From: Mesorhizobium onobrychidis
GTDB lineage: Bacteria; Pseudomonadota; Alphaproteobacteria; Rhizobiales; Rhizobiaceae
Direction of reading: 5' to 3'
NCBI RefSeq assembly: GCF_024707545.1
Contig: NZ_CP062229.1
Span: 62,001 to 126,000, forward strand
DNA: 64,000 nucleotides
The position numbers and the translations under genes are program-made. The notes under the pieces were generated by a model, which saw only the letters and a program-made list of their open reading frames with translations, ran no database searches and was not told the DNA's origin. This document shows, piece after piece, positions 3,198-39,353 of this stretch. How positions within the stretch are numbered: position 1 is the stretch's first letter; each line of letters begins with the position of its first letter.

Positions 3198-3390
3198 CGG
3201 GTGATGAAGCGTCCGAAAAAGAGGAAGGGAAAAGTGGCAAAAGGTCTCACTGGAAGCGCCCTTATAGGTGTTGCAACGCCAGAGCAAAAGACCTAGTTTC
3301 CGCCCGATTTGACCGCCTCGCGGGGTGGTTCACGATTACCGACGGACGGAGTGGACGGATCGGTCCGCCGGAAAAGGGAGCCTGGGGCGT

Positions 3391-4044
3391 ATGGACTCTT
3401 TCGAAATCAACAAGCTGATCGGCGGCCTGCTCGGAACCGTGTTCGTCGTCTTCTCGGTCGGCATCATATCCGACGCGCTGTTCGCCTCCCCCGCACCGGA
3501 AAAACCCGGCTTCGCCATCGAGGCGACCGAGGAGCCTGCCGAGGGCGGCCCGGCAGCCCCCGCTGCCGAAGCCAAGCCGATCGCCGAGCTTCTGGCCAAC
3601 GCCAATGTCGAGGCCGGCGCCGCCGTGTTCAAGAAGTGCCAGGCCTGCCACACCGGCGAGAAGGGCGGGCCGAACAAGGTCGGCCCTGATCTGTGGGACC
3701 TCATCGACCGTCCCGTCGCCGAGCATGCGGGCTTCGCCTATTCGGCCGGCATGAAGGAGTTTTCCAAGGGCGGCGCCGAGAAGTGGACCTACGACAACCT
3801 CAACCATTTCCTCCTCTCGCCGAAGAAGCTCGTGAAGGGCACGGCGATGGGCTTTGCCGGCCTGCCGAAGGACGAGGACCGCGCCAACGTCATCGCCTAT
3901 CTGCGCACGCTGTCGGACAGTCCGAAGCCGCTGCCGACACCTGGCGCTTCGGCGGCTGCGCCCGCAGAGGGTGCAGCGCCCGCCAAGCCGGCAGAGGGTG
4001 AAGCACCGGCCGCCCCTGCGGCGCCTGCTGCTCCCGCGCAATAA
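3391..4044 (+). CDS. cycM: membrane-anchored class I cytochrome c
   Basis: Small electron carrier tethered to the inner membrane, between the bc1 complex and terminal oxidases in rhizobia. 217 residues. Residues 10-31 are one uncleaved membrane segment after a short cytoplasmic start (MDSFEINKLI). The heme site is CQACH (Cys83, Cys86, His87) and Met153 in GTAMGFAG is the likely second axial ligand. The last ~40 residues are an Ala/Pro-rich tail. An upstream in-frame GTG-type start was rejected because this ATG sits directly before the membrane anchor and has a GGGAG-type ribosome site. A strong terminator follows. Confidence 0.93.
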   Translation: MDSFEINKLIGGLLGTVFVVFSVGIISDALFASPAPEKPGFAIEATEEPAEGGPAAPAAEAKPIAELLANANVEAGAAVFKKCQACHTGEKGGPNKVGPDLWDLIDRPVAEHAGFAYSAGMKEFSKGGAEKWTYDNLNHFLLSPKKLVKGTAMGFAGLPKDEDRANVIAYLRTLSDSPKPLPTPGASAAAPAEGAAPAKPAEGEAPAAPAAPAAPAQ

Positions 4045-4070
4045 CGCAATTGTAATCGATTCATTCCTTG

Positions 4071-4100
4071 AAAAAGCCGGGTTCAGCCCGGCTTTTTTAA
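4071..4100 (+). terminator. intrinsic terminator after cycM
   Basis: Arms AAAGCCGGG and CCCGGCTTT flank the short loop TTCAG, followed by a T run. The A run before the left arm means it could also act leftward, but no gene ends there from the right. Confidence 0.9.
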
Positions 4101-4203
4101 TGGGAAAAGCCCATGTGCGGCGACATGGCCGGCCTGTCGCGGTTTTCATAGGCGTTAAATGATCTAGATTGTCCGCTGACAGCTATCGCAAAGAGGAGAA
4201 GGC

Positions 4204-6084
4204 ATGACGGTTGGCCGAACGTTTCTCAGATCGATGCTGGTTGTGGCGGCTTTTGCCGGCGGCCTGCAGGCAGCCTTCGCGAACGAATGGCGCACCACAT
4301 CGTCGCTGATCGGCGAATCCAAATATGGCAACAACTTCCAGCACTACGACTACGTCAATCCGGACGCGCCGAAGGGCGGCACGCTGAATTCGGTGGTGCT
4401 CGGCACGTTCGACAGCTTCAATCCGTATATCGTGCAGGGTTCCTTCGCCGCCGGCTTTGTCCCGTTCGGTGGCGGCTTGCTCTACGACACGCTGATGGAG
4501 CAGGCGACCGACGAAGGCAGCGTCAGCCATCCGCTGATCGCCGACGCCTACAAACATCCGGACGACTATTCCTCGGCGACCTACCGTCTCGATCCGCGGG
4601 CCAAATGGCATGACGGCAAGCCGATCACCACCGACGATGTAATCTGGTCGTTTCAGGTGCTGAAGACCAACAGCCCGATGTACAGCCGCTATTTCGAGAA
4701 TGTCACCGATGCGGTCGCGGTTTCCGACCGCGAAGTCGAGTTCCATTTCGACCAGAAGGGCAACCGGGAGTTGCCGAAAATCCTCGGCGATGTCGTTGTG
4801 CTGCCGAAGCACTGGTGGGAAGGTACCGACGCCACCGGCAAGAAGCGCGACATCACCAGGCCGACACAGGAGCCGCCGCTCGGCTCGGCCGCCTACAAGA
4901 TCGCCAGCTTCAAGCCGGGCTCCGAAATCGTCTGGCAGCGCGTGCCGGACTACTGGGGTGCCAAACTGCCGGTAAAGATCGGCCGCGAGAATTTCGACAG
5001 GCAGCGTTTCAGCTACTTTCTCGACGACAATGCCTCCTGGCAGGCCTTCACCAAGGGCGGCTTTGAGGATTTTCGCGTTGAGTCACGTGCCCAGCGATGG
5101 GCGGTCGAGTACACCTTTCCCGCCATCAAAGCGGGGGACGTCATAAAAGCGGAATATCCCACAACCTCGCCGGAACCCATGCAGGCCTACGTGATGAACA
5201 CGCGCCGGCCACTCTTTCAGGACGTGCGCGTGCGCCAGGCCCTGACCTACGCCTATGATTTCGAGAGCATGAACCGCACCATCTTCTTCGGCGCCTATAC
5301 GCGCACGGACAGTTATTTCGAAGGTGGTGATTTGGCCTCAAGCGGCCTGCCGCAGGGCAAGGAACTGGAAATCCTCGAGCCATATCGAGACAAGCTGCCG
5401 CCCGAACTGTTCACCCAGGAGTTCAAGCTGCCGGTCTACAGCACGCCGCAATCTGGGCGTGAAAATCTTCGGAAGGCCTATGACCTCTTCAAGCAAGCGG
5501 GTTGGGTCAATCGCGGCGGCAGGCTCGTCAACGAAAAGACCGGCGAACCGTTCAGGATCGAATTTCTCGGCAACGACCCCGTAGACGAACGCGTCGCCGG
5601 GCCCTTGATTGACAATCTGAGGCGCCTCGGTATCGACGCCACGCTGCGCATCGTTGACGACAGCCAGTACACGAATAGGACCCGTGCTTTCGATTTCGAC
5701 ATGCTGGCGGTTGCAGGCTTCCAGCAATCCAACTCGCCGGGTAACGAACAGCGCGATTTTTTCAGCTCCACTGCAGCCGATACACCCGGGGCACGCAATT
5801 TGGCAGGGATCAAGAACCCGGTGGTCGACGCGCTTATCGACCGGGTGATCTTCGCCACCGATCGGGACGATCTCGTAGCGGCCACCCACGCACTGGACCG
5901 GGTGCTGCTCTGGAATTACTACATGATCCCACAGTGGCACCTGGGAAAAATTCGTATCGCCTATTGGAACAAGTTCGGCATCCCGGAAAAGCAACCGACG
6001 TATAGCGGCGTCGATCAGAATTCCTGGTGGATCGATGCGGACAAGGAAAAGGCGCTGGCGGCAAAATACAAGAGTGGCAATTGA
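4204..6084 (+). CDS. yejA1: peptide ABC transporter substrate-binding protein (YejA family, Sec-exported)
   Basis: Periplasmic binding protein of family 5 for oligopeptides, the first gene of a yej-type importer. 626 residues with a Sec signal peptide (about 1-27, ending AAFANEW). YejA hallmarks are HYDYVNPDAPKGG near the mature N-terminus, WHDGKPITTDDVIWSF and PPLGSAAYKI. Translation starts from an AGGAGAAGGC site. Its stop codon overlaps the next ATG (TGATG). In Escherichia coli and Brucella the Yej system takes up microcin C-like peptides and affects antimicrobial-peptide resistance; the substrate here is not shown by the sequence. Confidence 0.93.
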   Translation: MTVGRTFLRSMLVVAAFAGGLQAAFANEWRTTSSLIGESKYGNNFQHYDYVNPDAPKGGTLNSVVLGTFDSFNPYIVQGSFAAGFVPFGGGLLYDTLMEQATDEGSVSHPLIADAYKHPDDYSSATYRLDPRAKWHDGKPITTDDVIWSFQVLKTNSPMYSRYFENVTDAVAVSDREVEFHFDQKGNRELPKILGDVVVLPKHWWEGTDATGKKRDITRPTQEPPLGSAAYKIASFKPGSEIVWQRVPDYWGAKLPVKIGRENFDRQRFSYFLDDNASWQAFTKGGFEDFRVESRAQRWAVEYTFPAIKAGDVIKAEYPTTSPEPMQAYVMNTRRPLFQDVRVRQALTYAYDFESMNRTIFFGAYTRTDSYFEGGDLASSGLPQGKELEILEPYRDKLPPELFTQEFKLPVYSTPQSGRENLRKAYDLFKQAGWVNRGGRLVNEKTGEPFRIEFLGNDPVDERVAGPLIDNLRRLGIDATLRIVDDSQYTNRTRAFDFDMLAVAGFQQSNSPGNEQRDFFSSTAADTPGARNLAGIKNPVVDALIDRVIFATDRDDLVAATHALDRVLLWNYYMIPQWHLGKIRIAYWNKFGIPEKQPTYSGVDQNSWWIDADKEKALAAKYKSGN

Positions 6085-14754: not shown

Positions 14755-16356
14755 ATGAACCGCTTCGCCGAACTCCTCGATCGCCTCGTCCTGACGCCGT
14801 CGCGCAACGGCAAGCTGACGCTGCTGACCGATTATTTCCGCAGCGTCGAGGATCCGGATCGCGGCCTGGCGCTGGCCGCCATCACCGGCGACCTGACCAT
14901 CGCGGCGGTCAAGCCGGCGATGCTGCGCATGCTGGTCATGGAACGCATGGACCCGGTGCTGTTCGGCTATTCCTACGACTATGTCGGCGATCTGGCGGAG
15001 ACCGTGTCGCTGGTCTGGCCGCAATCGCCTGCGGATATCGCCAACCATGAGCCGACGCTCGCCGATGTCGTCACAAAGCTGCAGGCGGCGAGCCGTTCCG
15101 ACGGGCCGACGGTGCTGGCCAGACTGCTCGACAGCGCCAGCATCTCAGCGCGCTTCGCCATCATAAAGCTGGTCACCGGCGGCCTGCGCATCGGCGTCTC
15201 GGCGCGGCTGGCCAAGCAGGCGCTGGCCGATCTCGGCAAGGTCGACGTCGCCGAGATCGAAGAACTCTGGCATGGGCTGACGCCGCCCTATGCCGAGCTC
15301 TTCGCCTGGCTGGAAGGCAAGGCAGAAAAACCCAAAAAGACAGCGCTGGCGCTGTTCCGGCCGGTGATGCTATCGAACCCGATCGGTGACGGCGACCTCG
15401 AAAAGCTCGACCCGGCCGACTATGCCGCCGAGTGGAAATGGGACGGCATCCGCGTCCAGGCCGTATCGGAAGGCGGCATTCGCCGGCTCTATTCGCGCAC
15501 CGGCGACGACGTCTCCGGGGCTTTTCCGGACCTCGCAGAGGCGATGAATTTTTCCGCCACCCTCGACGGCGAGCTTCTGGTCGGCGATCCCTTGCAGGCG
15601 ACCGGCACGTTCTCGGACCTGCAGCAGCGGCTGAATCGCAAGAGCGTGACACCGAAGATCCAGCAGCAATACCCGGCCTTCATGCGCTGCTACGACGTGC
15701 TTCAGATCGGCGACGAGGACTTGCGCGCGCGCTCTTTCCGCGAGCGGCGCGGCCGCCTCGAAGCCTTCGTGCAGACGTTCGATCCGAGCCGCTTCGATCT
15801 GTCTCCCCTGGTCGAATTCACCGACTGGCAGGCGCTGGAGGAATTGCGCCGCAAGCCGCTGCATCCGGTCGTTGAAGGCGTAATGCTGAAGCGCTGGGAT
15901 TCGCCGTATCTCACCGGCCGGCCCAAAGGGCCATGGTTCAAATGGAAGCGCGATCCGCACACTGTCGACGCTGTGCTGATGTATGCCCAGCGGGGCCACG
16001 GCAAGCGTTCGAGTTTCTATTCCGATTACACGTTCGGCGTCTGGTCCGGCCCGGAAGGATCGGAGGAACTGGTGCCGGTGGGGAAAGCCTATTTCGGCTT
16101 CACCGACGAGGAACTGAGGCAGATCGACAAATATGTCCGCGACAATACGATCGAGCGCTTTGGCCCGGTCCGCTCGGTACGGACCGACCGCAAGAACGGT
16201 CTCGTGCTGGAGGTGGCGTTCGAAGGGCTCAACCGCTCGACACGGCACAAATCCGGCGTCGCCATGCGCTTTCCGCGCATTTCACGGCTGCGCTGGGACA
16301 AGCCGGCGGCCGAAGCCGATCGCATCGAGACGCTGCAGGCGCTGCTCGACAGTTAG
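14755..16356 (+). CDS. ATP-dependent DNA ligase (LigB/archaeal-type, exonuclease-associated)
   Basis: Seals DNA nicks using ATP. 533 residues, with an N-terminal DNA-binding domain (1-200), then the adenylation domain: motif I EWKWDGIRVQ with adenylated Lys228, motif III ATLDGELLV, motif IV VEGVMLKR and motif V WFKWKRD, and a C-terminal OB domain. This is the family found in the Lhr/phosphoesterase/exonuclease/ligase repair cluster, distinct from NAD-dependent LigA and from LigD. An in-frame start five codons upstream (MVLTV) is possible; the ATG giving MNRFAELLDRL fits the family better. Confidence 0.93.
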   Translation: MNRFAELLDRLVLTPSRNGKLTLLTDYFRSVEDPDRGLALAAITGDLTIAAVKPAMLRMLVMERMDPVLFGYSYDYVGDLAETVSLVWPQSPADIANHEPTLADVVTKLQAASRSDGPTVLARLLDSASISARFAIIKLVTGGLRIGVSARLAKQALADLGKVDVAEIEELWHGLTPPYAELFAWLEGKAEKPKKTALALFRPVMLSNPIGDGDLEKLDPADYAAEWKWDGIRVQAVSEGGIRRLYSRTGDDVSGAFPDLAEAMNFSATLDGELLVGDPLQATGTFSDLQQRLNRKSVTPKIQQQYPAFMRCYDVLQIGDEDLRARSFRERRGRLEAFVQTFDPSRFDLSPLVEFTDWQALEELRRKPLHPVVEGVMLKRWDSPYLTGRPKGPWFKWKRDPHTVDAVLMYAQRGHGKRSSFYSDYTFGVWSGPEGSEELVPVGKAYFGFTDEELRQIDKYVRDNTIERFGPVRSVRTDRKNGLVLEVAFEGLNRSTRHKSGVAMRFPRISRLRWDKPAAEADRIETLQALLDS

Positions 16357-16366
16357 ATTTTGTTTT

Positions 16367-16445
16367 GAGCATCGGATTTTCCCAAAACCGGTTTTCACCC
16401 TCGGGTTGGGTTAAGCCCGTGGGCATGCTTTTGAGTCCGATGCTC
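16367..16445. repeat. palindromic intergenic repeat, family B
   Basis: Outer arms GAGCATCGGA and TCCGATGCTC enclose the sequence AAAACCGGTTTTCACC and an inner imperfect hairpin around TCGGGTTGGGTTAAGCCCG. It fills the space between the convergent ligase gene and the membrane protein gene, whose stop codon touches the right arm. The position suggests a bidirectional terminator; no clear T run is seen. Confidence 0.7.
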
Positions 16446-17680
16446 TACGGAACAATCGAGACGCGGATCTCGTAGATGTCGACCGACTTGCCCTGTTTGT
16501 CAAAGTCGGAATTGATGGCGATGGTGCCGGCAGCACCCGGACGCTTGTCGGGAAACGGCACGTCGAACAGATATTCGTTGCGCTCGTGGCCGACCGCGTA
16601 GCGCTTGCGGCCGCAGTCGCCGAGTTCGCCGAAGTTGCAGTCGACGGAGATCTGCGTCTCCTTGCCCTCCTCGGAGCGGGCGATGATGTCGAATGTGGCG
16701 TGCTTGCCGGCGAGTTTTTCCAGCACGCCTTGCCCGACGTCGAAGCTGATCGCCGAACCGGAGGCGCCCGACCGGATGCGCAGGAAGGAACCGCTGTCGT
16801 CCTGCATGACTTCGGCCTTGGCATCCGAAGGTGCACTGACAAGCGTCGGGTCGCTCGGTGAAAACACATTGATCCAGTCGCGCTCCGCATCGCCGGGGTC
16901 CAGCGGCGAGGCGGTGTCGCTTGGCGGTGTGAAATCATCGTCTTCCACCGTCGGTACCGTTTGCGGCGGGGCCGTGTCGAGTTCGGCCGCCGACTTGAAG
17001 ACGCCGGTCTGCGCAGCGAAATAGAGGCCGATGCCGACAGCTGCGAGCAGCGTCACGCCGAGGAAGATCGCGGTGAGAGGCAGGCGGCGGCCCCTCACCC
17101 GCCTGTCGTCGCGGTCGGGCATCACCTCTGCGTCGTCGTCTCCGGTCGATGGGGGGGGCGACAAGTCGATCTCCGGCGCACCGGGAAAACCCGCTTCGGG
17201 CATGATATCGGGAACGACCGGCAAGACGCGCGAGCGCGGCGCGTCGGAAGCAGGGGGCGCGCCGGATGCAGGAGGCTTCACCGGACCGTCGACAACGACG
17301 TCAGGTGGGGAGGCGGGTTCGGCGTCGGCTCCGGCATCCGGTTCGACTTCGACATCGGCTTCGGCTTCGACGGCGCTGTCAGCCGGCTGCTCCACCGCCG
17401 GTGCTGCAGCGTCATCATCGGTCTGTGGGCCGACGCCGGGAACCGCCGGCAGGAATTCGGATTCGATTTCGGTTATCTTGGCCTGCACCGCCTTGCGGCG
17501 CTTGATGGCGACTTCCACCGTCACGCCCGGGTTGGCCTGCAGGGCACGGTCGAGTGCGGCGAAGGCCGATCGATAGACCCGCTCGCGAAACGCGCGGTCT
17601 TCGGCATTGCCTTTCTCGAAGGCATTCCGGATCGCTTTTTCGATCGCGTCCAAACGGGACCCCTCTGCACGTACGGTCAC
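16445..17680 (-). CDS. hypothetical single-pass membrane protein with acidic Pro-rich linker
   Basis: 411 residues, not recognised. Residues 1-80 are a charged, probably helical cytoplasmic domain (EKAIRNAFEKGNAEDRAFRE). Residues 81-190 are a low-complexity linker rich in Pro, Ala, Asp and Glu. Residues 201-224 are one membrane segment preceded by a cluster of Arg (DDRRVRGRRL), giving N-in, C-out topology. The periplasmic C-terminal 180 residues look folded (SFLRIRSGASGSAISFDVGQ) and contain a close Cys pair (DCNFGELGDCG), which could form a disulfide. The architecture suggests a cell-envelope sensor or scaffold, but no function is assigned. Confidence 0.75.
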   Translation of the reverse strand: MTVRAEGSRLDAIEKAIRNAFEKGNAEDRAFRERVYRSAFAALDRALQANPGVTVEVAIKRRKAVQAKITEIESEFLPAVPGVGPQTDDDAAAPAVEQPADSAVEAEADVEVEPDAGADAEPASPPDVVVDGPVKPPASGAPPASDAPRSRVLPVVPDIMPEAGFPGAPEIDLSPPPSTGDDDAEVMPDRDDRRVRGRRLPLTAIFLGVTLLAAVGIGLYFAAQTGVFKSAAELDTAPPQTVPTVEDDDFTPPSDTASPLDPGDAERDWINVFSPSDPTLVSAPSDAKAEVMQDDSGSFLRIRSGASGSAISFDVGQGVLEKLAGKHATFDIIARSEEGKETQISVDCNFGELGDCGRKRYAVGHERNEYLFDVPFPDKRPGAAGTIAINSDFDKQGKSVDIYEIRVSIVP

Positions 17681-17992
17681 ATTGTCATGATCGTTAGCCG
17701 TAGGCGATCAATCAATCAACGGGCCAGCGGCCGCATTCTTCCTTCGCGACGCATCCAAAGCTCATTTCGGCGGTTTTCGGTAAAGAAATCAACATTTTTC
17801 GCCGATTTCCCGATGCAGCGCCAACGCGATGTCGCGCAACCTGCCGGCGAGTCATCGCGCCACCGCATGGCGGACCGGCGGCTGCCGCTTATAGGCCCGG
17901 CACGGGCCCCACACGAAATGCCAAGTCCCATCTTGAATTTGTGGCGGGTTGCGTCTATCACCCAGCGCATCTTGGAAGCCCTGGCTTCCCGG
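17681..17992. other. intergenic region upstream of tRNA-Thr, nothing recognised
   Basis: About 310 bases between a leftward gene and the tRNA. It must hold the promoters for both. I see no convincing coding sequence, repeat or terminator. Confidence 0.5.
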
Positions 17993-18068
17993 GCCGCTTT
18001 AGCTCAGTTGGTAGAGCACATCATTCGTAATGATGGGGTCAGGTGTTCGAGTCACCTAAGCGGCACCA
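17993..18068 (+). tRNA. tRNA-Thr (anticodon CGT)
   Basis: Full cloverleaf with encoded CCA end. The acceptor stem is GCCGCTT with AAGCGGC, the D arm is AGCTCAGTTGGTAGAGC, the anticodon stem CATCA/TGATG encloses loop TTCGTAA with CGT at 18026-18028 reading ACG, and the T arm is AGGTG-TTCGAGT-CACCT. Its 3' half is echoed by a degenerate copy near 22047-22084, which suggests it has served as an integration site. Confidence 0.97.
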
Positions 18069-18385
18069 AAAAAATCCCTTCAGATAGATCAAGACATTAC
18101 CTAACCATCGCCAAGCGAGACGGCTCCAGTCTTTTGGAAAAGGTAGCAAATAGGTACCAGTCCTAGGGTGCGGTAGCACGGCATGGGCCGCGCCGCTGTC
18201 ATTCTGATAGGTCGCGACGCCGATTCCGTTGGCAGCGTTAATGGCAGCGTCGAGATATTCTGGTGCAGACGTAGGAGAATCCTTCGGTGATGTCTTTTTT
18301 GTCGGTTTTGCAGCGTAATATTGTGGCCTCCACCGGAGTGGGGCGCTGTGCGCCTAATTTTTCCTGGAAACTGGATTCCACGCAT
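18069..18385. other. left end of putative islet, no recognisable gene
   Basis: About 320 bases between the tRNA and the AT-rich lipoprotein gene. Short open frames exist on both strands but none resembles an integrase, excisionase or other known family. An earlier in-frame start of the lipoprotein gene at 18287, preceded by a GGAG, lies here. An A run follows the tRNA CCA end. Confidence 0.4.
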
Positions 18386-18808
18386 ATGCGGCCAAAGAGA
18401 GTAGGTTTCTATGCATGGCTTCTTCTTTTTGGCGTATGTCTCTCGATCCAAGCCTGTGGCAGCGGACGTAGCGGGCAGTCTGTCTCCAGTCAGGATTCGG
18501 CTTGCACTGGCGAAGAAGTAGTTGGCGCGATACAGGGTAATGGCGGTAAATTCATATTTAGCATTTCCGAGCTAAAGGCATTCCTTTCAAAGTATAAAGT
18601 TTGCGAATTTCGTAAAAATTTGGATGTGCCTATTTTTACTAGAAAAAATATTGAATTTACATTGCCTTACGATGTAAAAATAAAAACTAAATCTGAGGGA
18701 GGCAATCTTTCTGGTTGTGTAGAACGTAGATTAGATGCATTTCCACCAGACAGGTATATCGTTTGTTTCGGGCAAGGTCATGATGGCTGGAGAAAAGTAG
18801 AAGGATAA
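18386..18808 (+). CDS. AT-rich hypothetical lipoprotein
   Basis: 140 residues from an ATG that gives a lipoprotein signal: MRPKRVGFYAWLLLFGVC followed by lipobox LSIQAC. A start 33 codons earlier has a better-placed GGAG but would bury the signal. The mature protein has three more Cys (SACTGEE, KVCEFRK, SGCVERR, and IVCFGQG), possibly forming disulfides. Base composition is markedly more AT-rich than every neighbour, with A- and T-ending codons such as AAA, ATT and TTT throughout, a sign of recent acquisition. No family recognised. Confidence 0.6.
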   Translation: MRPKRVGFYAWLLLFGVCLSIQACGSGRSGQSVSSQDSACTGEEVVGAIQGNGGKFIFSISELKAFLSKYKVCEFRKNLDVPIFTRKNIEFTLPYDVKIKTKSEGGNLSGCVERRLDAFPPDRYIVCFGQGHDGWRKVEG

Positions 18809-18892
18809 GAGCTATTCGATCAGCGTTGGTACGTTCTCCCTACCAGGGAACTGGTCATTTGACATTGGGGTTGAGAGCAGAACAGCATGCTA

Positions 18893-20014
18893 TCACTGCG
18901 ACGCTGCCGGCGACAGTCGCAATATTCTTCCCGCTGGCTCGTCGGTCAACGCCATTACCGCGCCGTCGGGGGCCTGCACCACGTCTCGGATACGACTGCC
19001 GAGAGCGAGGACTTCCTCGCCGGCGACCTGCTTTCCGTCAATCCTGACACGAACGATGCCTTCCGCCGACAGTCCGCCAATCAGCAGGTCGCCTCGCCAA
19101 TCGGCAAACATGTCGCCGTTGTAGAAGGTCATGCCGGAAGGCGAGATGACGGGCGTCCAGCTATGGATGGAGCCGGCAAACTCCGGCCTCGTCGACGGAT
19201 CGGGGATGCGTTCGCCCGAATAGTGGCGGCCCCAGCTGACCACGGGCCAGCCGTAATTCTTGCCCGCTTCCGGAATGTTCAGCTCGTCGCCGCCGAGCGG
19301 CCCCATCTCCGCCGTCCAGAGCACTCCGGTTTCGGGATGGAGCGCAGCACTTTGCACATTACGATGGCCGTAGGACCAAATCTCGTCGGCGCCGTCCTTG
19401 CCGACGAAAGGATTGTCGTCAGGCACCGAACCATCGGGATTGATGCGGACGATTGTCCCGAGATGATTGTTCGGGTCCTGCGCCTGCCGCATCTTGAAGC
19501 GCTCGCCGAGCGTGACGAAGAGCTTGCCGTCCGGCGCGAATACCAGGCGGGAGCCGTAGTGGTTCCGGCCGGAGACGGCCGGTTCCTGCCGGAAGATCAC
19601 ATCGAAGTTCGAGAGCGCGCTGCCGTTCTCGTCTAGGCGTCCACGGCCGACGGACGTGGCCGCGCCGCCGCCGCGTTCCTCCGAGTAGGAGAGATAAACC
19701 GTCCGGTTGTTGGCAAAGTCCGGGTCGAGCGCCACATCCAGCAGGCCGCCTTGTCCGCCGGCGAGGACGTCCGGCACACCGTCGATCGGATCGGAAACGG
19801 CACCGTCGGTCGAGACGAGCCGCAGGCGCCCCGGACGCTCGGTGACCAGCAACGCGCCGTCGGGCAGGTAGGTCGCGCCCCAGGGATGTTCGAGCCCTTC
19901 GGCAAAGGTCTCGACCGCAATGCGGCCTGTTTCGCTCTCGACGCTGCTGTCCTGCGCGAGCGAGGGCGCACCGAAGGCAAGAAGAAAAGACGAAGCAATG
20001 AGTATCCGCAGCAT
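18893..20014 (-). CDS. PQQ-dependent aldose sugar dehydrogenase (glucose/sorbosone dehydrogenase family)
   Basis: 373 residues, exported. The signal peptide is MLRILIASSFLLAFGAPSLA. The mature part is the six-bladed propeller of the soluble aldose sugar dehydrogenase (YliI/Asd) family: LEHPWGATYLPDGALLVTER at the N-terminus, GGQGGLLDVALDPDF, the catalytic His region SGRNHYGSRLVF, DEIWSYGHRNVQ and GKNYGWPVVSWG. These proteins oxidise aldoses in the periplasm with PQQ and calcium. No PQQ synthesis gene is in the window. The ATG with a GGAG site directly before the signal was chosen over a start 110 codons upstream. It lies inside the putative tRNA-Thr islet. Confidence 0.9.
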   Translation of the reverse strand: MLRILIASSFLLAFGAPSLAQDSSVESETGRIAVETFAEGLEHPWGATYLPDGALLVTERPGRLRLVSTDGAVSDPIDGVPDVLAGGQGGLLDVALDPDFANNRTVYLSYSEERGGGAATSVGRGRLDENGSALSNFDVIFRQEPAVSGRNHYGSRLVFAPDGKLFVTLGERFKMRQAQDPNNHLGTIVRINPDGSVPDDNPFVGKDGADEIWSYGHRNVQSAALHPETGVLWTAEMGPLGGDELNIPEAGKNYGWPVVSWGRHYSGERIPDPSTRPEFAGSIHSWTPVISPSGMTFYNGDMFADWRGDLLIGGLSAEGIVRVRIDGKQVAGEEVLALGSRIRDVVQAPDGAVMALTDEPAGRILRLSPAASQ

Positions 20015-20487
20015 GATTTCTCCATCCGAAGGGAGGTATAGGGAGGAGCCGCCGGCTCCCCGATATAATGACCGACTGCCGATGCGGTTCCAAGCCGGCG
20101 CGCGCGCCTGGATTTTCAGCTGTGACTTATCACGAGACGAGCCCGGCGCATGTGACCATCCCTCAGGGACGCCAGAGGCCATGGTAGAGTTGCCCTCCCA
20201 TCGCCAACCGGACGGCGTCATCGGCCCCGGATGACGCAGCGGGCCGCGGTGCCGACGGCGCAATTCGCAGATGAAGCACAGGGTGGCGACGCCGGCGAAA
20301 CCGTCGGTGCGGATACAGCGGCCATGGTTGATGCGGCTCCGCAAAAACTAATCTGAAAACAATTGAGCGCGAATGAAAACCAATTGAGACACAACTGAAA
20401 CACATCCACGCGCAGGCGACATCTGCGCGAAACGCTTTGGGGGGATTGTCGAGCCTCACCCAAGACAGGAACGCAGGAGAGTCGCCG
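20015..20487. promoter_or_regulatory. divergent regulatory region between sugar dehydrogenase and globin genes
   Basis: About 470 bases without a convincing gene. It contains two direct repeats, TGAAAACAATTGAG at 20354-20367 and TGAAAACCAATTGAG at 20374-20388, whose CAATTGAG cores are 21 bases apart (two helical turns), and a weaker third (ACAACTGA). They lie about 100 bases before the globin start and could bind a regulator. This is inference. Confidence 0.4.
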
Positions 20488-20913
20488 ATGACACCCGACC
20501 AGATCAGACTTGTCCAGGACAGTTTTCACGAGGTCGTCGCGATCCGCGTGGCCGCCGCCGCGCTGTTTTACGAACGCCTGTTCGCGATCGATGCGGATCT
20601 TCGCGCGCTGTTTCCGGTGAGAGACATGACCAAGCAAGGCGCCAAGCTGATGGCGAGCCTGGGCTTCGTCGTGCACGGATTGGACCGAGCCGACACCATC
20701 CTTCCGACGGTGCGCGTGCTCGCCAGGCGTCACGTGACCTACGGCGTTGAGGAGCGTCATTACCCGATCGTCGGGCAAGCGCTCATCGAGACGCTGGCGG
20801 CCGGCCTCGGCACGGCATTTACGCCGGCCGTCCGCGAAGCTTGGGAGGCGGCCTACGGATTGCTCGCCAGTGTGATGATCGCGGCTGCCCGTGAGGATCA
20901 GCTCGCAGCGTGA
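20488..20913 (+). CDS. single-domain bacterial hemoglobin
   Basis: 141 residues, a flavohemoglobin/Vitreoscilla-type globin without a reductase domain. Heme-pocket residues are all placed as expected: proximal His82 (ARRHVTYGV), CD1 Phe42 (LRALFP), B10 Tyr28 (LFYERLF) and distal Gln50 at E7 (TKQGAKLM). Such proteins bind O2 and NO. The ATG giving MTPDQIRLVQDSF was chosen over one 17 codons upstream. It is followed at once by a small secreted protein on the same strand. Confidence 0.92.
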   Translation: MTPDQIRLVQDSFHEVVAIRVAAAALFYERLFAIDADLRALFPVRDMTKQGAKLMASLGFVVHGLDRADTILPTVRVLARRHVTYGVEERHYPIVGQALIETLAAGLGTAFTPAVREAWEAAYGLLASVMIAAAREDQLAA

Positions 20914-20975
20914 TTTTTGGGATGCAGCCAGGCGACCATCCACCCGAACGACAATTCCAAATGGAGAGAAACACC

Positions 20976-21302
20976 ATGTTCAGATACACAGCTCTTGCAG
21001 CGCTTTGCCTCGTGGCAAGTTCCGCTTCCGCCGGCGAACTCACGGCCCGTCAGGGTGGGACCGTCGATCTCGGCAACTTTCACGGCGTCGTCTACTACAC
21101 GGAGGCGGACGACGGCTACCGGGTGGTCACCACAATGGCGGCAGGCGAAGAAAGTTTGCCGGTACGCTTCGTTGCGACGCTCACCGAGGGCCAGGCGATG
21201 GTGATCTCGGTCCCGGGCGCGTTGGCAGGACCCGGCCAGGCACTCGAAATCTCGCGCGCCAAAGGCAAGCTCGTTGTTGCGACGGTGGAGTCCACCCAGT
21301 AA
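20976..21302 (+). CDS. small secreted protein of unknown function
   Basis: 108 residues with a clear Sec signal (MFRYTALAALCLVASSASAG) and a GGAGAG ribosome site. The mature ~88 residues look all-beta (TVDLGNFHGVVYYTEADDG, GQAMVISVPG, KGKLVVATVES) and lack Cys. Sixty-two bases after the globin gene on the same strand, so possibly co-transcribed. No family recognised. Confidence 0.75.
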   Translation: MFRYTALAALCLVASSASAGELTARQGGTVDLGNFHGVVYYTEADDGYRVVTTMAAGEESLPVRFVATLTEGQAMVISVPGALAGPGQALEISRAKGKLVVATVESTQ

Positions 21303-21428
21303 ACGGGTTGAAAGTTGACGTTGCGACGCAACCGGATAGTCTGCGCCTGCTTCCGCGCCTTCCACAGCGCGAAGAGACAATCGGCACCGCCATTGGGATG
21401 GCTATCGTCCTAACCTCGGAGAAACGAG

Positions 21429-21962
21429 ATGCTCAAGGTGCAAAGTGCGGACGTTCGATTTCGACTTTTTGAGTGTGGACAGTTTTTCTTGATCCTGATG
21501 GGCGCTGGTCTACTTGCGCCGGCCGCTTTTGCCGATGTCGTCGAGACGACGACCCTCGCCGTCGCGGATTTCGAGTTCAGGGATACGTCAGGCGAAGTCA
21601 GGGACCAGACCGCCGAGCACGAAGCGCGACTGAAGGCATTTGGGGTAGCGTTGCAGGATGGCCTTTCGGAGAAGATCAAGCTCGTCGCGTTACCCTGTCA
21701 GGCAGAACAGTGCACCATCAAGGACCCCGGCCTTGTCGATCTTTCGAAACAGGCAAGAACAGCCAGCGCGAAATATCTCCTGATCGGTCAGATGCACAAG
21801 ATGAGCACGCTGGTCGGCTGGGTGAAGTTTGCAGTGCTGGATTTGAGCAACAACAAACCTGTCTGCGATCGATACCTGACTTACCGGGGAGATACCGACG
21901 AAGCATGGCGACGAGCAGCAGAGTTCACGGCGCGTGACGTCGAGAAGCACTGCATTCCGTAG
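21429..21962 (+). CDS. DUF2380-type secreted protein
   Basis: 177 residues with a hydrophobic segment at about 18-36 ending APAAFADV, a probable signal peptide after a longer than usual n-region. The mature part begins with TTLAVADFEFRDTSGEVRDQ, the start of the DUF2380 family, and continues with ALQDGLSEKIKLVALPC and KYLLIGQMHKMSTL. It has four Cys in the mature part, including ALPCQAEQC. These proteins are periplasmic or lipid-anchored and of unknown function. It is the last gene before the degenerate tRNA-Thr copy. Confidence 0.75.
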   Translation: MLKVQSADVRFRLFECGQFFLILMGAGLLAPAAFADVVETTTLAVADFEFRDTSGEVRDQTAEHEARLKAFGVALQDGLSEKIKLVALPCQAEQCTIKDPGLVDLSKQARTASAKYLLIGQMHKMSTLVGWVKFAVLDLSNNKPVCDRYLTYRGDTDEAWRRAAEFTARDVEKHCIP

Positions 21963-22046
21963 GTATCGCGGAAAGTCCGGCGACCGAAATGGGTCGCCGA
22001 CAGCAACGCAATGCAATAGCTTCGGTGATCAGACCGGCAGGAATGC

Positions 22047-22084
22047 GATGCCGTCGCGTGTTCGAGTCACGCAAGCGGCACCAA
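22047..22084 (+). other. degenerate tRNA-Thr 3' half (putative attachment site remnant)
   Basis: Matches the 3' half of tRNA-Thr(CGT): GATG of the anticodon stem, a changed variable loop, then GTGTTCGAGTCAC, two changed bases and AAGCGGCACCAA. Over the last 27 bases 25 are identical to 18043-18069. The changes in the T stem are paired (GCGTG with CACGC instead of AGGTG with CACCT), so it derives from a functional tRNA 3' end, not random similarity. No 5' half is present, so it is not a gene. It reads as the right boundary of an integrated segment. Confidence 0.7.
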
Positions 22085-22089
22085 TATTT

Positions 22090-22329
22090 TCAGCGATCGG
22101 CTGGAGTAGCCGGGCCATCGCCCAGCGACGCCACGGTCTTCAGCGCGCCTTCGAGCATGTCGCCCTTCTCGTCCTTCAACGCGGCTTCGCGCAGGCGCCG
22201 GATCCAGTCGGCGGCGTCATCGCGGTCCTTGAGCAAATCGAGCGCCGACAGCACGCGATCTAACTTCGGCTGGGCGCGGGCGTGGGTGTCGCTGTAGCCC
22301 TTGATCAGCCGGCCCCTGAACCTCAGCAT
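22090..22329 (-). pseudogene. short ORF resembling the C-terminal end of indolepyruvate ferredoxin oxidoreductase
   Basis: 79 codons starting MLRFRGRLIKGYSDTHARAQ and continuing with DDAADWIRRLREAAL and GALKTVASLGDG. From memory this resembles the extreme C-terminus of the large indolepyruvate oxidoreductase subunit with a DUF6537 region; the rest of that protein is absent, because upstream the frame runs into dppF. It ends six bases from the degenerate tRNA copy, so it is probably a gene fragment left at the islet edge. A short independent gene cannot be excluded. Confidence 0.4.
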
Positions 22330-22353
22330 GGCCTGGGAGCCGCGGTTGCGGCG

Positions 22354-23184
22354 TCAGGCGGCCTTCTTCTTCGCCAGCCTCGCCTTGATGCTGGCGACGT
22401 CGGCGCGCGGCGTCGCGGCGAACAGTGTCTTGGTGTAGCTGTGCTTGGGGTCGGCAAAGACCTCGTCGCGTGAGCCGTATTCGACGGCCTCGCCGTAATA
22501 CATGACCATCACGTCGTCGGCGATGTAGCGCACCACCGAAAGGTCGTGGCTGATGAAGACATAGGTCAGCTCGAACTCGTCCTGCAGGTCGGCAAGCAGG
22601 TTGAGCACCTGCGCCTGCACCGACAGATCGAGCGCCGAGACCGGCTCGTCGAGCACCAAAAGGCTCGGATTGAGCATCAGCGCGCGGGCAATGGCGATGC
22701 GCTGGCGCTGGCCGCCCGAGAACATGTGCGGGTAACGGTTGTAATGCTCGGGTCCGAGGCCGACCTTTTTCAGCATCTTCATGGCGAGATCGCGCCGCTC
22801 GTCGGCCGGCCTGTCGGTGTTGATGAGCAGCGGCTCGCCCAGCACGTCGCCGATCTTCTGGCGCGGATTGAGCGAACCATATGGGTTCTGGAAGACGATC
22901 TGCACCTTGCGGCGCATCTCCTTCGACAGCCCATCCTTGGCGATGTCGACCTTGTTACCGTCGATGAAGAGCTCGCCTGCTGTCGCGGGATCAATCAGGG
23001 TGATGATGCGGGCGAGCGTTGACTTGCCGCAGCCGCTTTCGCCGACGATGGCGAGCGTCTTGCCCTTGTCGACACTGAAGGAAACGCCCTTGACCGCGTG
23101 CACCGTGCGCGAGGGACGAAACAGGCCGCCACCGACATGATAGTCGCGCACGATGTTCTTGCCTTCGAGAACCGTCACACTCAT
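22354..23184 (-). CDS. dppF: dipeptide/oligopeptide ABC transporter ATP-binding protein DppF
   Basis: 276 residues, one ABC ATPase with Walker A GESGCGKST (about 50-58), Q-loop VFQNPYGSLNPRQ, signature FSGGQRQRI and Walker B LLVLDEPVSALD, plus the oligopeptide-transporter C-terminal extension (YYGEAVEYG, HSYTKTLFAATP). It pairs with DppD to power peptide import. It overlaps dppD by four bases (ATGA) and is the last gene of the operon. Confidence 0.94.
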   Translation of the reverse strand: MSVTVLEGKNIVRDYHVGGGLFRPSRTVHAVKGVSFSVDKGKTLAIVGESGCGKSTLARIITLIDPATAGELFIDGNKVDIAKDGLSKEMRRKVQIVFQNPYGSLNPRQKIGDVLGEPLLINTDRPADERRDLAMKMLKKVGLGPEHYNRYPHMFSGGQRQRIAIARALMLNPSLLVLDEPVSALDLSVQAQVLNLLADLQDEFELTYVFISHDLSVVRYIADDVMVMYYGEAVEYGSRDEVFADPKHSYTKTLFAATPRADVASIKARLAKKKAA

Positions 23185-24056
23185 GACGCGGCTCCCGTTG
23201 CAGGCCCGCTTCCCGCAGCAGAGGGGGCCGGTTCGAACAGCATGTCGGAAATGGTCGGCAGCCGGTCGCCGACGGCGTTTTCCGGCAGCGCCGACAGCAG
23301 CGCGCGCGTGTAGTTGCTCTTCGGCTGCTCGAACAGCGACAGCACGTCGGCCTCCTCCATCTTGCGGCCCTTGTACTGGACGATGACGCGGTCGGCGGTC
23401 TCGGCCACGACGCCCATATTGTGGGTGATCATGATCAGCCCCATGCCGTATTTGGCCTGCAGGCCAACCAAAAGGTCAAGGATCTGCTTCTGGATGGTGA
23501 CGTCGAGCGCGGTGGTCGGCTCGTCGGCGATCAGCAGCTTCGGATTGCAGGCAATGGCGATGGCGATCATGACGCGCTGGCACTGGCCGCCCGACATCTG
23601 GTGCGGGAACGAGTTCAGCCGCTCTTCCGGATCGGCGATGCCGACCAGCTTCATCAGCTCGATGGCGCGGGCCCGGCGCTGGGCGCGGTCCATGCCCATA
23701 TGGAAGCGCAGCACCTCCTCGATCTGGAAGCCGGCGGTGAAGCATGGATTGAGACTGGCGATCGGCTCCTGGAAGATCATCGAGATTTCCTTGCCGACGA
23801 TCTTGCGGCGCTCGGACGGACTGAGCTCAAGCAGGTCGACACCGTCGAAGGCCATGCGGTCGGCCTTCACTGTCGCCGTGTTCGGCAAAAGCCCCATCAC
23901 CGCCAGCATCGCCACCGATTTGCCGGAGCCGGATTCGCCGACGATCGCCAGCACCTCGCGCGGCTCGATCGACAGGTCGATGCCTTGCACGGCCATGAAC
24001 GGTCCGGCGGCGGTATCGAAGGACACGGTGAGGTTCTTGATCTCGAGAAGAGGCAT
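23181..24056 (-). CDS. dppD: dipeptide/oligopeptide ABC transporter ATP-binding protein DppD
   Basis: 291 residues from the ATG giving MPLLEIKNLTVSFDT. Walker [10 protein letters not shown]-loop IFQEPIASLNP, signature MSGGQCQRV (note Cys where Gln-Arg-Gln usually reads QRQR) and Walker [13 protein letters not shown] are present, with the C-terminal oligopeptide extension (KSNYTRALLSALP). An in-frame start 53 codons earlier lies inside dppC and was rejected. Two bases separate it from dppC. Confidence 0.94.
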   Translation of the reverse strand: MPLLEIKNLTVSFDTAAGPFMAVQGIDLSIEPREVLAIVGESGSGKSVAMLAVMGLLPNTATVKADRMAFDGVDLLELSPSERRKIVGKEISMIFQEPIASLNPCFTAGFQIEEVLRFHMGMDRAQRRARAIELMKLVGIADPEERLNSFPHQMSGGQCQRVMIAIAIACNPKLLIADEPTTALDVTIQKQILDLLVGLQAKYGMGLIMITHNMGVVAETADRVIVQYKGRKMEEADVLSLFEQPKSNYTRALLSALPENAVGDRLPTISDMLFEPAPSAAGSGPATGAAS

Positions 24057-24058
24057 GG

Positions 24059-24976
24059 TCACGACCTCTTCAGCTTGGGGTCGAAGGCATCGCGCAGGCC
24101 ATCGCCGATCAGGTTGATGGCAAGCACCGTGATCAGGATGGCAAGGCCGGGGAAGGTCACCACCCATGGCGCGCGCAGGATGAACTCGCGTGCCGTGGCC
24201 AGCATCGTGCCCCATTCCGGCGTCGGCGGCTGCGCACCGACGCCAAGGAAGCCGAGAGCCGCGGCCTCGAGAATGGCGTTGGAGAAGGACAGCGTCGCCT
24301 GCACGATCAGCGGTGCCATGCAGTTTGGCAAGATCGTCTTCACCATCAGCCTAAGATGACTGGCACCGGCCACCTTGGCGGAGATCACATATTCGCGGTT
24401 CTTTTCGGCCATCACCGCGGCACGGGTGAGCCGCGCGAAATGCGGCTGCAGCACCAGTGCAATCGCTAGCATGGCGTTGAACAGGCCGGGTCCGAGGATC
24501 GCCACCAGAACCAAGGCAAGGAGCAGCGACGGGAAGGCCAGGATGACGTCCATGATGCGCATGATCAGCGTATCGACCCAGCCTCGGAAATAGCCGGCGA
24601 GCACGCCGAGGATGATGCCGCTGGTCAGCGAGAAAACGACGACGACCAGACCGATGAACAGCGAGAACCGCGCCCCGAAAATCAGCCGCGAAAGCATGTC
24701 GCGGCCAACGGCGTCGGTGCCGAGCAGGAACATCGACCTGCCGCCCTCCTGCCAGGCCGGGGGCGTCAGCAGCGCATCGCGAAACTGTTCGTCAGGCGAA
24801 TGCGGCGCGACCAGCGGCGCGAAAATCGCCACCAGCACCAGGGCCGTGAACACGACCAGGCCGATGACGGCGCCTGTGTTCATCGAGTAGTAATGCCAGA
24901 ACTCGGTGAAGGCGCGTTGCCGGCCGCCAGTCGGAATGGCGGCGGCGGTGGCTTCTGCCGTGGTTTGGTCGGTCAT
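24059..24976 (-). CDS. dppC: dipeptide ABC transporter permease DppC
   Basis: 305 residues, inner-membrane permease. Membrane segment 1 is at about 34-55 (AVIGLVVFTALVLVAIFAPL), followed by a periplasmic loop with HSPDEQFRDAL and the conserved LLGTDAVGRDMLSRLIFG, then five more segments and the docking loop YVISAKVAGASHLRLM. Starts one base after the dppB stop, so the two are translated together. Confidence 0.94.
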   Translation of the reverse strand: MTDQTTAEATAAAIPTGGRQRAFTEFWHYYSMNTGAVIGLVVFTALVLVAIFAPLVAPHSPDEQFRDALLTPPAWQEGGRSMFLLGTDAVGRDMLSRLIFGARFSLFIGLVVVVFSLTSGIILGVLAGYFRGWVDTLIMRIMDVILAFPSLLLALVLVAILGPGLFNAMLAIALVLQPHFARLTRAAVMAEKNREYVISAKVAGASHLRLMVKTILPNCMAPLIVQATLSFSNAILEAAALGFLGVGAQPPTPEWGTMLATAREFILRAPWVVTFPGLAILITVLAINLIGDGLRDAFDPKLKRS

Positions 24977-35112: not shown

Positions 35113-36702
35113 ATGTCAGTGGCTGTTGAGAAGCCGGATACGCCCTCGGACCAACGTTCGCGGCGTTCCGGCGGGCGCGAAGCGCGTCGCGCCATGCGGG
35201 CGGCGCCACTTGCCGACGATATCAAGCCGGTGCGCGCCGGCCTCGAAGGCGGAAGCTACGGGCCGCTCAGCGAAAACGACCGCGAGCGCATTCACGAAGC
35301 GGTGCTGACGCTGCTTGAAACGGTCGGCTTCGCCAATGCCATCCCATCCTGCATCGAGGTGCTGACCGAGGCCGGCGCCACCCTCAGCGAGGACGGCCGC
35401 ATCCGTTTTCCGCGCGCGCTCGTCCTCGGCACCATCAAGAAGGCCGCACGCCACTTCACCCTGCATGGCCAGGATCCCAAGCACGACATGCTGATCCAGG
35501 GTAAGCGCGTGCATTACGGCACGGCGGGCGCCGCGGTGCATCTGGTCGACGTCGAGAAGCGCGAGTATCGCGAGTCGCTGCTGCAGGACATCTATGACGC
35601 GGCCCGCATCGTCGAAGGGCTCGACAACATCCATTTCTTCCAGCGGCCGATGGTGCCGCGCGACATTCCCGATCCGCTCGATATGGATTTCAACACGCTT
35701 TACGCCTGCGTGATGGGCACGTCGAAGCATGTCGGCACTTCCTTCACGGTACGCGAGAACGTCAAGCCGGCGCTCGACATGCTCTATGCGATTGCCGGCG
35801 GCGAAGAGAATTTTCGCGCGCGGCCTTTCGTCTCCAATTCGAACTGTTTTGTCGTACCGCCGATGAAATTCGCCGAGGATGCCTGCGGCGTGCTCGAGGC
35901 CTGCGTCGAAGGCGGCATTCCGATCCTATTGCTGTCGGCCGGCCAGGCAGGCGCCACGGCGCCGGCGGCGATTGCCGGTGCGGTGGTGCAAGCAGTGGCC
36001 GAGGTGCTCGCCGGCCTCGTCTATGTCAACGCCATCAAACCCGGCCATCCGGCGATCTTCGGCACCTGGCCGTTCGTCTCGGACCTCAGGACCGGCGCCA
36101 TGTCCGGCGGCTCGGCCGAGCAAGCGGTGCTGACCGCTGCCTGCGCCCAGATGGCGCAATTCTACGACTTGCCGGGCGGTTCGGCCGCCGGCATGACGGA
36201 TTCGAAACTGCCTGATATTCAGTCCGGTTACGAAAAGGGTATCACTGACGTGATGGCGGGCCTTGCCGGCCTCAACCTCGTCTACGAATCGGCCGGCATG
36301 CACGCCTCGCTGCTCGGCTTCTGCCTGGAAAGCCTGATCATCGACAATGACATGCTCGGCCATTGCCTGCGCTGCGTGCGCGGCATCGAGGTTACCGATG
36401 AGTCGCTGTCGATAGACACCATCGCCGACGTCTGCCTGAAGGGGCCGGGTCACTATCTCGGCAACGAGCAGACGCTGCGGCTGATGCAGACGGAATATTT
36501 CTATCCGGCGGTCGGCGACCGCTTTTCGCCGAAGGAGTGGAACGAGAAAGGCAGGCCCGACATCTTGCAGCGGGCGATCATCGAGAAGAAACGCATCCTC
36601 GCCGAGCGCTTCCCGCGCCATGTCCCGAAGCTGGTCGACGACAAGTTGCGCGCCCGCTTCGGCAATCTTATCCATCTGCCGCGCAGCGGCATGGGCGGCT
36701 GA
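35113..36702 (+). CDS. trimethylamine methyltransferase (MttB) superfamily protein, non-pyrrolysine type
   Basis: 529 residues in one open frame with no in-frame amber codon, so it is a non-pyrrolysine member. Members transfer a methyl group from quaternary amines such as glycine betaine to a corrinoid protein. Visible family stretches are DPKHDMLIQGKRVHYGTAGA, GGSAAGMTDSKLPDIQSGYE and FCLESLIIDNDMLGHCLR. The N-terminal ~45 residues are basic and Arg-rich. No corrinoid protein, activase or methyltransferase partner lies in the window, although rhizobia carry many such paralogues near demethylation genes. The ribosome site is AAGGTGGAG; the upstream region holds a repeat. Confidence 0.88.
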   Translation: MSVAVEKPDTPSDQRSRRSGGREARRAMRAAPLADDIKPVRAGLEGGSYGPLSENDRERIHEAVLTLLETVGFANAIPSCIEVLTEAGATLSEDGRIRFPRALVLGTIKKAARHFTLHGQDPKHDMLIQGKRVHYGTAGAAVHLVDVEKREYRESLLQDIYDAARIVEGLDNIHFFQRPMVPRDIPDPLDMDFNTLYACVMGTSKHVGTSFTVRENVKPALDMLYAIAGGEENFRARPFVSNSNCFVVPPMKFAEDACGVLEACVEGGIPILLLSAGQAGATAPAAIAGAVVQAVAEVLAGLVYVNAIKPGHPAIFGTWPFVSDLRTGAMSGGSAEQAVLTAACAQMAQFYDLPGGSAAGMTDSKLPDIQSGYEKGITDVMAGLAGLNLVYESAGMHASLLGFCLESLIIDNDMLGHCLRCVRGIEVTDESLSIDTIADVCLKGPGHYLGNEQTLRLMQTEYFYPAVGDRFSPKEWNEKGRPDILQRAIIEKKRILAERFPRHVPKLVDDKLRARFGNLIHLPRSGMGG

Positions 36703-38538: not shown

Positions 38539-39353
38539 GATGGCTTGCTCGCGCTTGGCCAGTTGTGCGTCTCCTCGGTGGCGTCGCGGCACCATCGGAA
38601 AAACGCATCGTAGAGCAGCATGCCTGCCTCCAGCTGTTCCAGATCGTCGCGAAACATCCGCGACAGGCCAAGCGAGGCGGCCAGGAAGCCGGCTGCCTGG
38701 GGAACCAGATCGAGGCTTGCGGTGTCGGCTGCGCGCACGATCACGGCGAGGCGGTCGAGCGCCTCGGATTCGAGCCCGAACTCTTCGATCATCGTGTCGA
38801 AGGTGCAGCGTTCGCCCCGGTGAGTCCAGAACACATTGTCGATGTCGAAAGGCACGGCCTGAAAGCGATCCGCAGTGGCCGACACTTCGGCCGCCTCGAC
38901 AAAGAGGAAGACCGCGCTCGGATCGATGAAGCGCCTGATCAGCCAGGGGCAGGCGATGCGATCGACCTTCGGGCGGGTCCGCGTCACCCACACGGTGCGG
39001 CCTTTTTCATCGCGGGGCGGTATCTTGCCGGCGTGAACCAGAAGCCCCTTGGCATCGCGCCAGGCTTCGAACCCGCCTTCGAGGGATTCGGCACTGATGC
39101 CCTCGTGCCGCAGCCATGCGGCCACACCTTGCGAGAGCTTTTGTCCTCTTTGGCAAACGACCGCCACTCGGCTGCCGGCGAATTCGGATGCCCAGGTCGA
39201 GACGGTTTTGAAATCACGCCGGCTTGAGGCCGGCAGCAGGCGCGGATCGGCGTTGTAGTCCTCTTCGATGCGAACATCGATGATCGCGGGCGCACCCGGC
39301 AGACCAATCAGACGGGAAAGTTGCGATACGGTGATAGCGGTTGTCGACGGCAT
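38535..39353 (-). CDS. chrB: chromate resistance protein ChrB with rhodanese domain
   Basis: 272 residues. Residues 5-105 form a rhodanese domain with the putative active Cys67 (VAVVCQRGQKLS). Residues about 120-265 are the ChrB C-terminal domain, with VDRIACPWLIRRFIDPSAVF and FTHRGE-type stretch FWTHRGERCTFDTM. ChrB proteins are linked to chromate sensing and resistance. A GGAGG site precedes the ATG; it overlaps chrA by four bases, so the pair is a translationally coupled chrBA operon. The 38 codons upstream in frame were not used. Confidence 0.92.
   Translation of the reverse strand: MPSTTAITVSQLSRLIGLPGAPAIIDVRIEEDYNADPRLLPASSRRDFKTVSTWASEFAGSRVAVVCQRGQKLSQGVAAWLRHEGISAESLEGGFEAWRDAKGLLVHAGKIPPRDEKGRTVWVTRTRPKVDRIACPWLIRRFIDPSAVFLFVEAAEVSATADRFQAVPFDIDNVFWTHRGERCTFDTMIEEFGLESEALDRLAVIVRAADTASLDLVPQAAGFLAASLGLSRMFRDDLEQLEAGMLLYDAFFRWCRDATEETHNWPSASKPS

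Follow-up and report, generated by a model that had tools for sequence, protein, structure and literature searches.

Why does an intact tRNA-Thr(CGT) gene of Mesorhizobium onobrychidis have a degenerate copy of its 3' half 4 kb away? The question concerns a stretch of 64,000 nucleotides (C1:62001-126000 of contig NZ_CP062229.1), which we refer to as the window. An earlier note on this DNA had described the interval as a 4-kb islet, which might be decayed or mobilised in trans. Judging from the sequences compared here, the distal copy most likely represents the former 3' end of the lineage's tRNA-Thr, since displaced. Two features define the locus:

17993..18068, + strand: intact tRNA-Thr(CGT) (ARAGORN; Rfam tRNA, 69.9 bits) with T stem AGGTG/CACCT, which is probably the more recent allele of the lineage; an integration target in the genus
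22047..22084, + strand: most likely the displaced 3' end of an earlier tRNA-Thr allele (GCGTG/CACGC), matching at 36/38 positions

The 27 nt at 18043-18069 are repeated at 22058-22084 with two mismatches, as the earlier note had seen; the similarity in fact begins at 22047 and spans 38 nt. With up to three mismatches allowed, the window has no further match, and 100 shuffled windows gave none at the same threshold. Genome-wide, 30-nt patterns of the two alleles had one match each (up to two mismatches), at the tRNA and at the remnant. The remnant lies in the orientation of the tRNA and reaches its 3' end through the CCA, rather than being tRNA-internal, which is the arrangement that the Islander criterion describes; the two 3' ends are about 4.0 kb apart, inside Islander's range of 2-200 kb. 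The CCA of the remnant ends at 22083, 6 nt short of the stop codon of an indolepyruvate-oxidoreductase (IOR) gene.

The T-stem differences between the two copies are paired, and from this it had been concluded that the remnant once belonged to a real tRNA. The genus bears this out. Among 146 genomes (labelled with G numbers, G000 being that of the window) we read one tRNA-Thr(CGT) from each of 145, leaving out G070. The T stem was GCGTG/CACGC (GCG) in 84, AGGTG/CACCT (AGG) in 60 and of another type in one, with no intermediates. The paired differences are therefore explained by the existence of a second real tRNA-Thr allele, the commoner of the two. The remnant agrees with the GCG allele of the genus at 36 of 38 positions, versus 32 of 38 for the window's own tRNA. 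Each of the two T stems is combined with each of the two common anticodon-stem types: CATCA/TGATG in 64 GCG and 54 AGG tRNAs, CCGCA/TGCGG in 17 and 5. On a quick tree from the 5' flanks (141 of the 145 rows, four with a 5' flank below 400 nt having been dropped), T-stem type changes 18 times (17 counting starred branches only), compared with a shuffled mean of 44.8, and anticodon-stem type five times, compared with 19.8. The window falls in a clade of 12 AGG genomes (SH-aLRT 99), and its sister clade, G119, G166 and G134, is GCG. Given this sister clade and the 36 matching positions, the remnant likely carries the earlier allele of the lineage.

To the right of the remnant, the window contains:

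22090..22329, - strand: broken C-terminal end of an IOR beta-family gene (fragment A); a 532-aa open reading frame (ORF) in G135 matches NF006179
22314..22351, no strand: deletion junction, its two sides lying 25-33 kb apart in the 22 relatives that have both on one contig among the matches listed
22354..23184, - strand: dipeptide ABC transporter ATP-binding protein of the right flank

The deletion cuts into the IOR gene of the window, so that dipeptide-transporter genes adjoin IOR. Empty-type sites, which the earlier note had hoped to see in relatives, do exist: 14 nt separate the intact tRNA from the IOR stop in G124 and 36 nt in G102, and G122 and G137 are near-empty. Past the 3' end, the sequence at the window's remnant (ACCA followed by ATATTTTCAGCGATC) and that at the intact tRNA of G124 (ACCA followed by GCTATTTTCACCGATC) are alike. 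G135 (ACCA followed by GTTATTTCACCGATC) agrees, with a gap to the IOR stop of 13 nt, compared with 6 nt in the window. By eye, G158 and G161 may retain a very decayed 3' end before IOR.

The 4 kb between the two copies is a patchwork and not one mobile unit. It consists of:

18070..18890, no strand: variable segment directly past the tRNA
18287-18808, + strand: AT-rich ORF, putative lipoprotein from a reading of its N-terminus, no Pfam hit
18893..20014, - strand: PQQ-type glucose/sorbosone dehydrogenase (PF07995, GSDH-type)
20232..20337, - strand: internal IOR fragment (fragment B), out of order with respect to fragment A at 22090-22329
20488..20913, + strand: globin (PF00042)
20976..21302, + strand: small protein, putatively secreted from a reading of its N-terminus, no Pfam hit
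21429..21962, + strand: DUF3280 protein (PF11684)

As to the gene contents first described, the PQQ dehydrogenase, the globin, the DUF3280 protein and the two small ORFs stand, and the terms 'lipoprotein' and 'secreted' are N-terminus readings only. The AT-rich stretch is real, with a GC content of 0.44 at 18250-18749 versus 0.57-0.69 in most intervals across 16000-24500. The lipoprotein segment, the PQQ block and the globin cluster have been gained or lost separately in G016, G020, G072, G087, G089, G119, G127, G134, G135, G164, G166, G167 and G169; the same five genes in every relative, without an empty site, is thus not what the genus holds. A search of the 146 genomes with the lipoprotein ORF gave, among the matches listed, nothing but short pieces in G072, on a different contig (99% over 141 bp and 94% over about 107 bp), and the segment had no plasmid match. 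G167 shares about the first 100 bp past the tRNA with the window. In G020 the lipoprotein segment is absent at this place, PQQ begins about 125 bp past the tRNA and 21971 is joined to 22288. G016 has about 5 kb with IS66-like genes (by eye) ahead of PQQ, and in G164 and G169 the tRNA and PQQ are separated by about 11-12 kb and the two 3' ends by 14-15 kb. PQQ is present without globin at the locus in G072 and G167. Among the matches listed, it lies on a different contig from the tRNA (in G119, 2.7 Mb away) in G087, G119, G134, G135 and G166, and a Tad-type pilus block (T2SSE ATPase) adjoins it in G129, G164 and G169. The order in G166, G119 and G134 is GCG tRNA, directly followed by the globin cluster, then a pyridoxamine-oxidase-like (PNPOx) gene and then IOR; PQQ is located elsewhere in these three. 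In G129, separate contigs bear the tRNA and the cluster. A second copy of the globin region, 86% identical to that of the window, is found at G000:C1:4657771-4658336.

Within the genus, the tRNA-Thr(CGT) gene serves as an integration site. The tRNA and a second 3' end (up to two mismatches) occur on one contig, 0.85-52 kb apart, in 18 of the 146 genomes: G000, G008, G014, G015, G019, G025, G061, G088, G095, G096, G097, G099, G110, G111, G114, G160, G164 and G169. Half of these (G008, G014, G088, G095, G096, G097, G099, G111 and G160) have an integrase-like ORF 49-212 bp from where the distal core starts; in G110 an integrase ORF lies inside the interval, and in G155 an integrase-like ORF is 1.45 kb away from the distal copy. 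The integrase of G008 is a PF00589 protein with an arm-binding domain. In G111, the allele order of the window (AGG tRNA, GCG distal copy) surrounds a 44-kb interval with an integrase adjoining the distal copy. Two 3' ends without a tRNA stand at both edges of a 42.3-kb contig in G142, and G155 and G072 have an extra 3'-end copy on another contig. Different cargo between the same repeats, also looked for by the earlier note, was seen in other species of the genus among the matches listed. Some two-copy intervals are short: 0.85 kb in G025, 2.6 kb in G019, 3.2 kb in G061 and 3.9 kb in G015. The last of these holds, near the tRNA, a broken PF00589 stretch (G015:C45:74224-74403, 32.5 bits, one stop), an example of the decay proposed below; the one G015 ORF that was profile-scanned gave no integrase match. 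The idea of a decayed islet is thereby borne out as far as the tRNA is an integrase target and an islet of similar size with a broken integrase exists, and fails in that the window does not hold a single 4-kb islet.

Several other arrangements were observed around this tRNA and the PQQ gene. At L240 (G110), three consecutive tRNA-Thr-like 5' halves, 135 bp apart, precede an 18-kb interval closed by another 3' end. Using a hidden Markov model (HMM), we detected integrase-like ORFs from about 150 bp past the tRNA at L091 (G001; E 1.6e-40), on the opposite side to the usual arrangement; about 10 kb left of the PQQ gene at L146 (G129:C219:2253-3476; E 2.6e-27); and about 5 kb left of it at L143 (the PQQ locus of G166, 3330-4619 of the reversed locus; E 4.5e-45). 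At L169 (G129:C241), the tRNA is adjoined by a DNA-methylase-like protein and several long restriction- or defence-like proteins (ORFs, by eye).

We think it probable, with moderate confidence, that incoming DNA at the tRNA supplied a new 3' part and displaced the old one, a tyrosine-integrase element being the most likely agent, and that the insertion later decayed. In an ancestor of the lineage, DNA would have entered at the tRNA-Thr(CGT) gene, bringing the AGGTG/CACCT 3' part that now completes the tRNA. The old GCGTG/CACGC part would have been pushed away and would be what still lies beside IOR at 22047-22084. The likeliest agent would be a tyrosine-integrase element of the kind that other species of the genus still have at the site. 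The integrase may then have been removed by subsequent deletions, recombination and insertions. These would also have left a patchwork of unrelated genes and trimmed the left side of the scar, which now ends at 22046/22047, inside the anticodon stem. Both repeats, the two alleles, the empty-type site, the integrase-bearing elements at this tRNA and the patchwork are seen directly; we infer the order of the later events and the part of an integrase in the first insertion, as opposed to recombination of the homologous or illegitimate kind.

Several observations weigh against this explanation. As the earlier note had stated, the window has no tyrosine recombinase: the search for PF00589 gave no match in it or within 660 kb on the contig, the nearest, at C1:748439, being under the family cut-off, and an HMM from ten integrases found at tRNA-Thr(CGT) had no match in the window either. 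Nor is there a PF00589 match between the copies in seven of the 18 two-copy genomes (G000, G019, G025, G061, G114, G164 and G169). The repeat of the window has its left end within the anticodon stem, in the 3' strand, short of the anticodon loop, and those at integrase-bearing loci (G008, G099, G111 and others) begin at or before that loop. The joint at 22046/22047 looks like a deletion or an illegitimate joint and not like an attP arm, because the sequence to the left of 22046 continues into the PNPOx gene in G166, G119 and G134. G087 and G169 carry, as their second copy at this place, a degenerate tRNA of full length joined at 21964/21965; it still has about 40-45 nt of its 5' flank, which is not what an integrase acting simply at the 3' end of a tRNA would leave behind. 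The empty-type site of G124 may be secondarily short, since a DUF2158 gene (PF09926) and several kb lie between the tRNA and IOR in many of 35 relatives. Finally, GCG as the earlier state is likely from the sister clade, and the groups next out from it are mixed (3 GCG/1 AGG and 2/2).

The G087 and G169 copies keep a homologous or illegitimate route in play. Here no integrase would be involved: a piece of DNA with its own AGG tRNA-Thr would have recombined homologously within the 5' flank and been joined illegitimately on the right-hand side (alternatively, it would have come in as a circle that recombined at the tRNA). The tRNA already there would have become redundant and stayed on as a complete copy, from which the window later lost the 5' half. 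We regard this as possible and less probable than an integrase element. It fits the globin cluster, 5' flank and full-length tRNA found together in G087 and G169, the degenerate copy of G061, which has a 5' flank, a partly missing anticodon arm and no cluster, and the variety of right-hand joints among relatives (21964/5, 21971, 21998, about 22003 and 22046). However, G087 and G169 are not sisters on the 5' flank tree and their second copies differ: that of G087 has a CGC-type anticodon stem, and the T stem of that in G169 (L133, around 12352 of the reversed locus) is a mosaic with AGGTG to the left and CACGC to the right, as if the alleles had recombined in the T loop. The window and G164 have the 3' half only, from 22047, and G135 a more decayed 3' end at the same place. 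In addition, the window has 82 nt of sequence downstream of the cluster that are missing from G087 and G169, so trimming of their copies would not yield its scar unless a further ancestor is assumed; with the joints also differing, full duplication of the G087/G169 type was not accepted as the scar's direct ancestor. In G166, G119 and G134 no convincing decayed remnant was seen by eye between the PNPOx gene and IOR, and in G020, G089, G127, G129 and G016 the stretch at the right end of the cluster is deleted.

A discrete, non-autonomous 4-kb islet mobilised in trans by an integrase encoded elsewhere in the genome is very unlikely. Short intervals without an intact integrase do occur in G025, G019, G061 and G015, and the 41 PF00589 matches elsewhere in the genome could be candidate agents. 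Against this, the content differs block by block among close relatives instead of being gained or lost as a whole, five genomes have PQQ elsewhere and a broken IOR fragment sits inside the interval. With patchwork content and no nearby integrase (over 660 kb to the closest match), the trans-mobilisation raised at the outset found no support. A merely fortuitous 3' end at 22047, or one without functional relation to the tRNA, can practically be dismissed, considering the shuffles without a match, the 36/38 agreement with a real allele and the homologous copies at the same place in G164 and G135.

Nine pairs with different T stems were picked by hand, and their tRNAs differ solely at positions 49, 50, 64 and 65. 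To see if T-stem type travels with the 3' flank, we compared pairs with similar and dissimilar 3' flanks in bins of 5' flank distance (the pairs are not independent). The same T stem was found in 30/36 versus 63/69 pairs at 0-0.1, 42/50 versus 264/319 at 0.1-0.2, 23/28 versus 493/746 at 0.2-0.4, 38/43 versus 1329/2401 at 0.4-0.8 and 3/7 versus 2187/5088 above 0.8, a mixed outcome. In a second comparison, restricted to the 67 of 474 close pairs with a conserved distal 3' flank, the first 50 nt past the tRNA differed by a mean of 0.30 when T stems differed (11 pairs) and 0.17 when they were alike (56 pairs), with a nominal p of 0.005 for pairs that are not independent and a stretch that is variable anyway. 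We tentatively suggest, as an idea with rather less than an even chance of being right, that mobile elements carry alleles of the tRNA body. In tRNA-Thr(CGT), landing elements would have repeatedly replaced one of two fully paired T-arm versions with the other, sometimes leaving just a new T arm and a short altered stretch; apparent compensatory evolution would then be replacement, and the window would keep both versions. Strain-to-strain homologous recombination could also cause such swaps. Should the pattern hold, double compensatory changes in tRNA 3' halves at integration sites ought not to be taken for stepwise co-evolution. At the window itself, a scar and a living tRNA with different alleles allow the insertion to be placed against sister lineages and suggest that incoming DNA altered the tRNA body. 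Two side observations concern the same positions: the tRNA-Thr(CGT) of close genomes, for instance L166 (G103) and L288 (G067), can differ only at T-stem positions 49, 50, 64 and 65, and T-stem differences between close genomes often accompany a more altered first 50 nt 3' of the tRNA.

Elsewhere in the window, two Rfam matches exceed the gathering threshold: PYLIS_3 (the pyrrolysine insertion sequence of mttB) at 36193-36292 on the + strand, which probably lies in an mttB-family gene, although this is a guess, and chrB-a RNA at 39351-39435 on the - strand.

How does this locus compare with known systems? Islander (PMC4383910) catalogues tRNA-targeted genomic islands and prophages with tyrosine integrases, tabulates anticodon-centred sites as one of two site classes and rejects candidates without an integrase. 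Its islands resemble the window in having an intact tRNA and a displaced 3' fragment in the same orientation, here about 4 kb apart, and the window differs by its lack of an integrase, its composite content and the two tRNA alleles at its ends; searches that demand an integrase, as Islander does, would overlook such scars. Within the genus, IMEMsp M2A.F.02-2 (PMC8627217) is a 40-kb integrative and mobilizable element reported to adjoin a tRNA-Thr gene, whose anticodon is not stated in the passage concerned. It shares genus and tRNA-Thr target with the window; the element is mobilizable and carries a relaxase, whereas the window has no integrase, and no search aimed at relaxases was made there. 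In the related genus Sinorhizobium, the integration hot spots reported for S. meliloti include tRNA-Thr(GGU) (PMC11476347), likewise a tRNA-Thr serving as a preferred site and a different isoacceptor; the att sites described there were reported to have no substitutions at the tRNA 3' end, in contrast to the two differing ends of the window. The abstract of PMC9897764, a paper on tRNA gene fragments left by integrated elements, centres on annotation errors in archaea and databases; the partial, non-canonical tRNA pieces from integration are similar, and the abstract draws no contrast of alleles. In titles, openings of abstracts and selected passages of the open-access literature, we found no earlier report of T-stem alleles being swapped by elements. 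Displaced tRNA fragments that mark islands are already well known, and the locus itself is most likely an ordinary decayed insertion scar; what is new is this scar, the census of tRNA-Thr(CGT) and, tentatively, the repeated replacement of its T stem.

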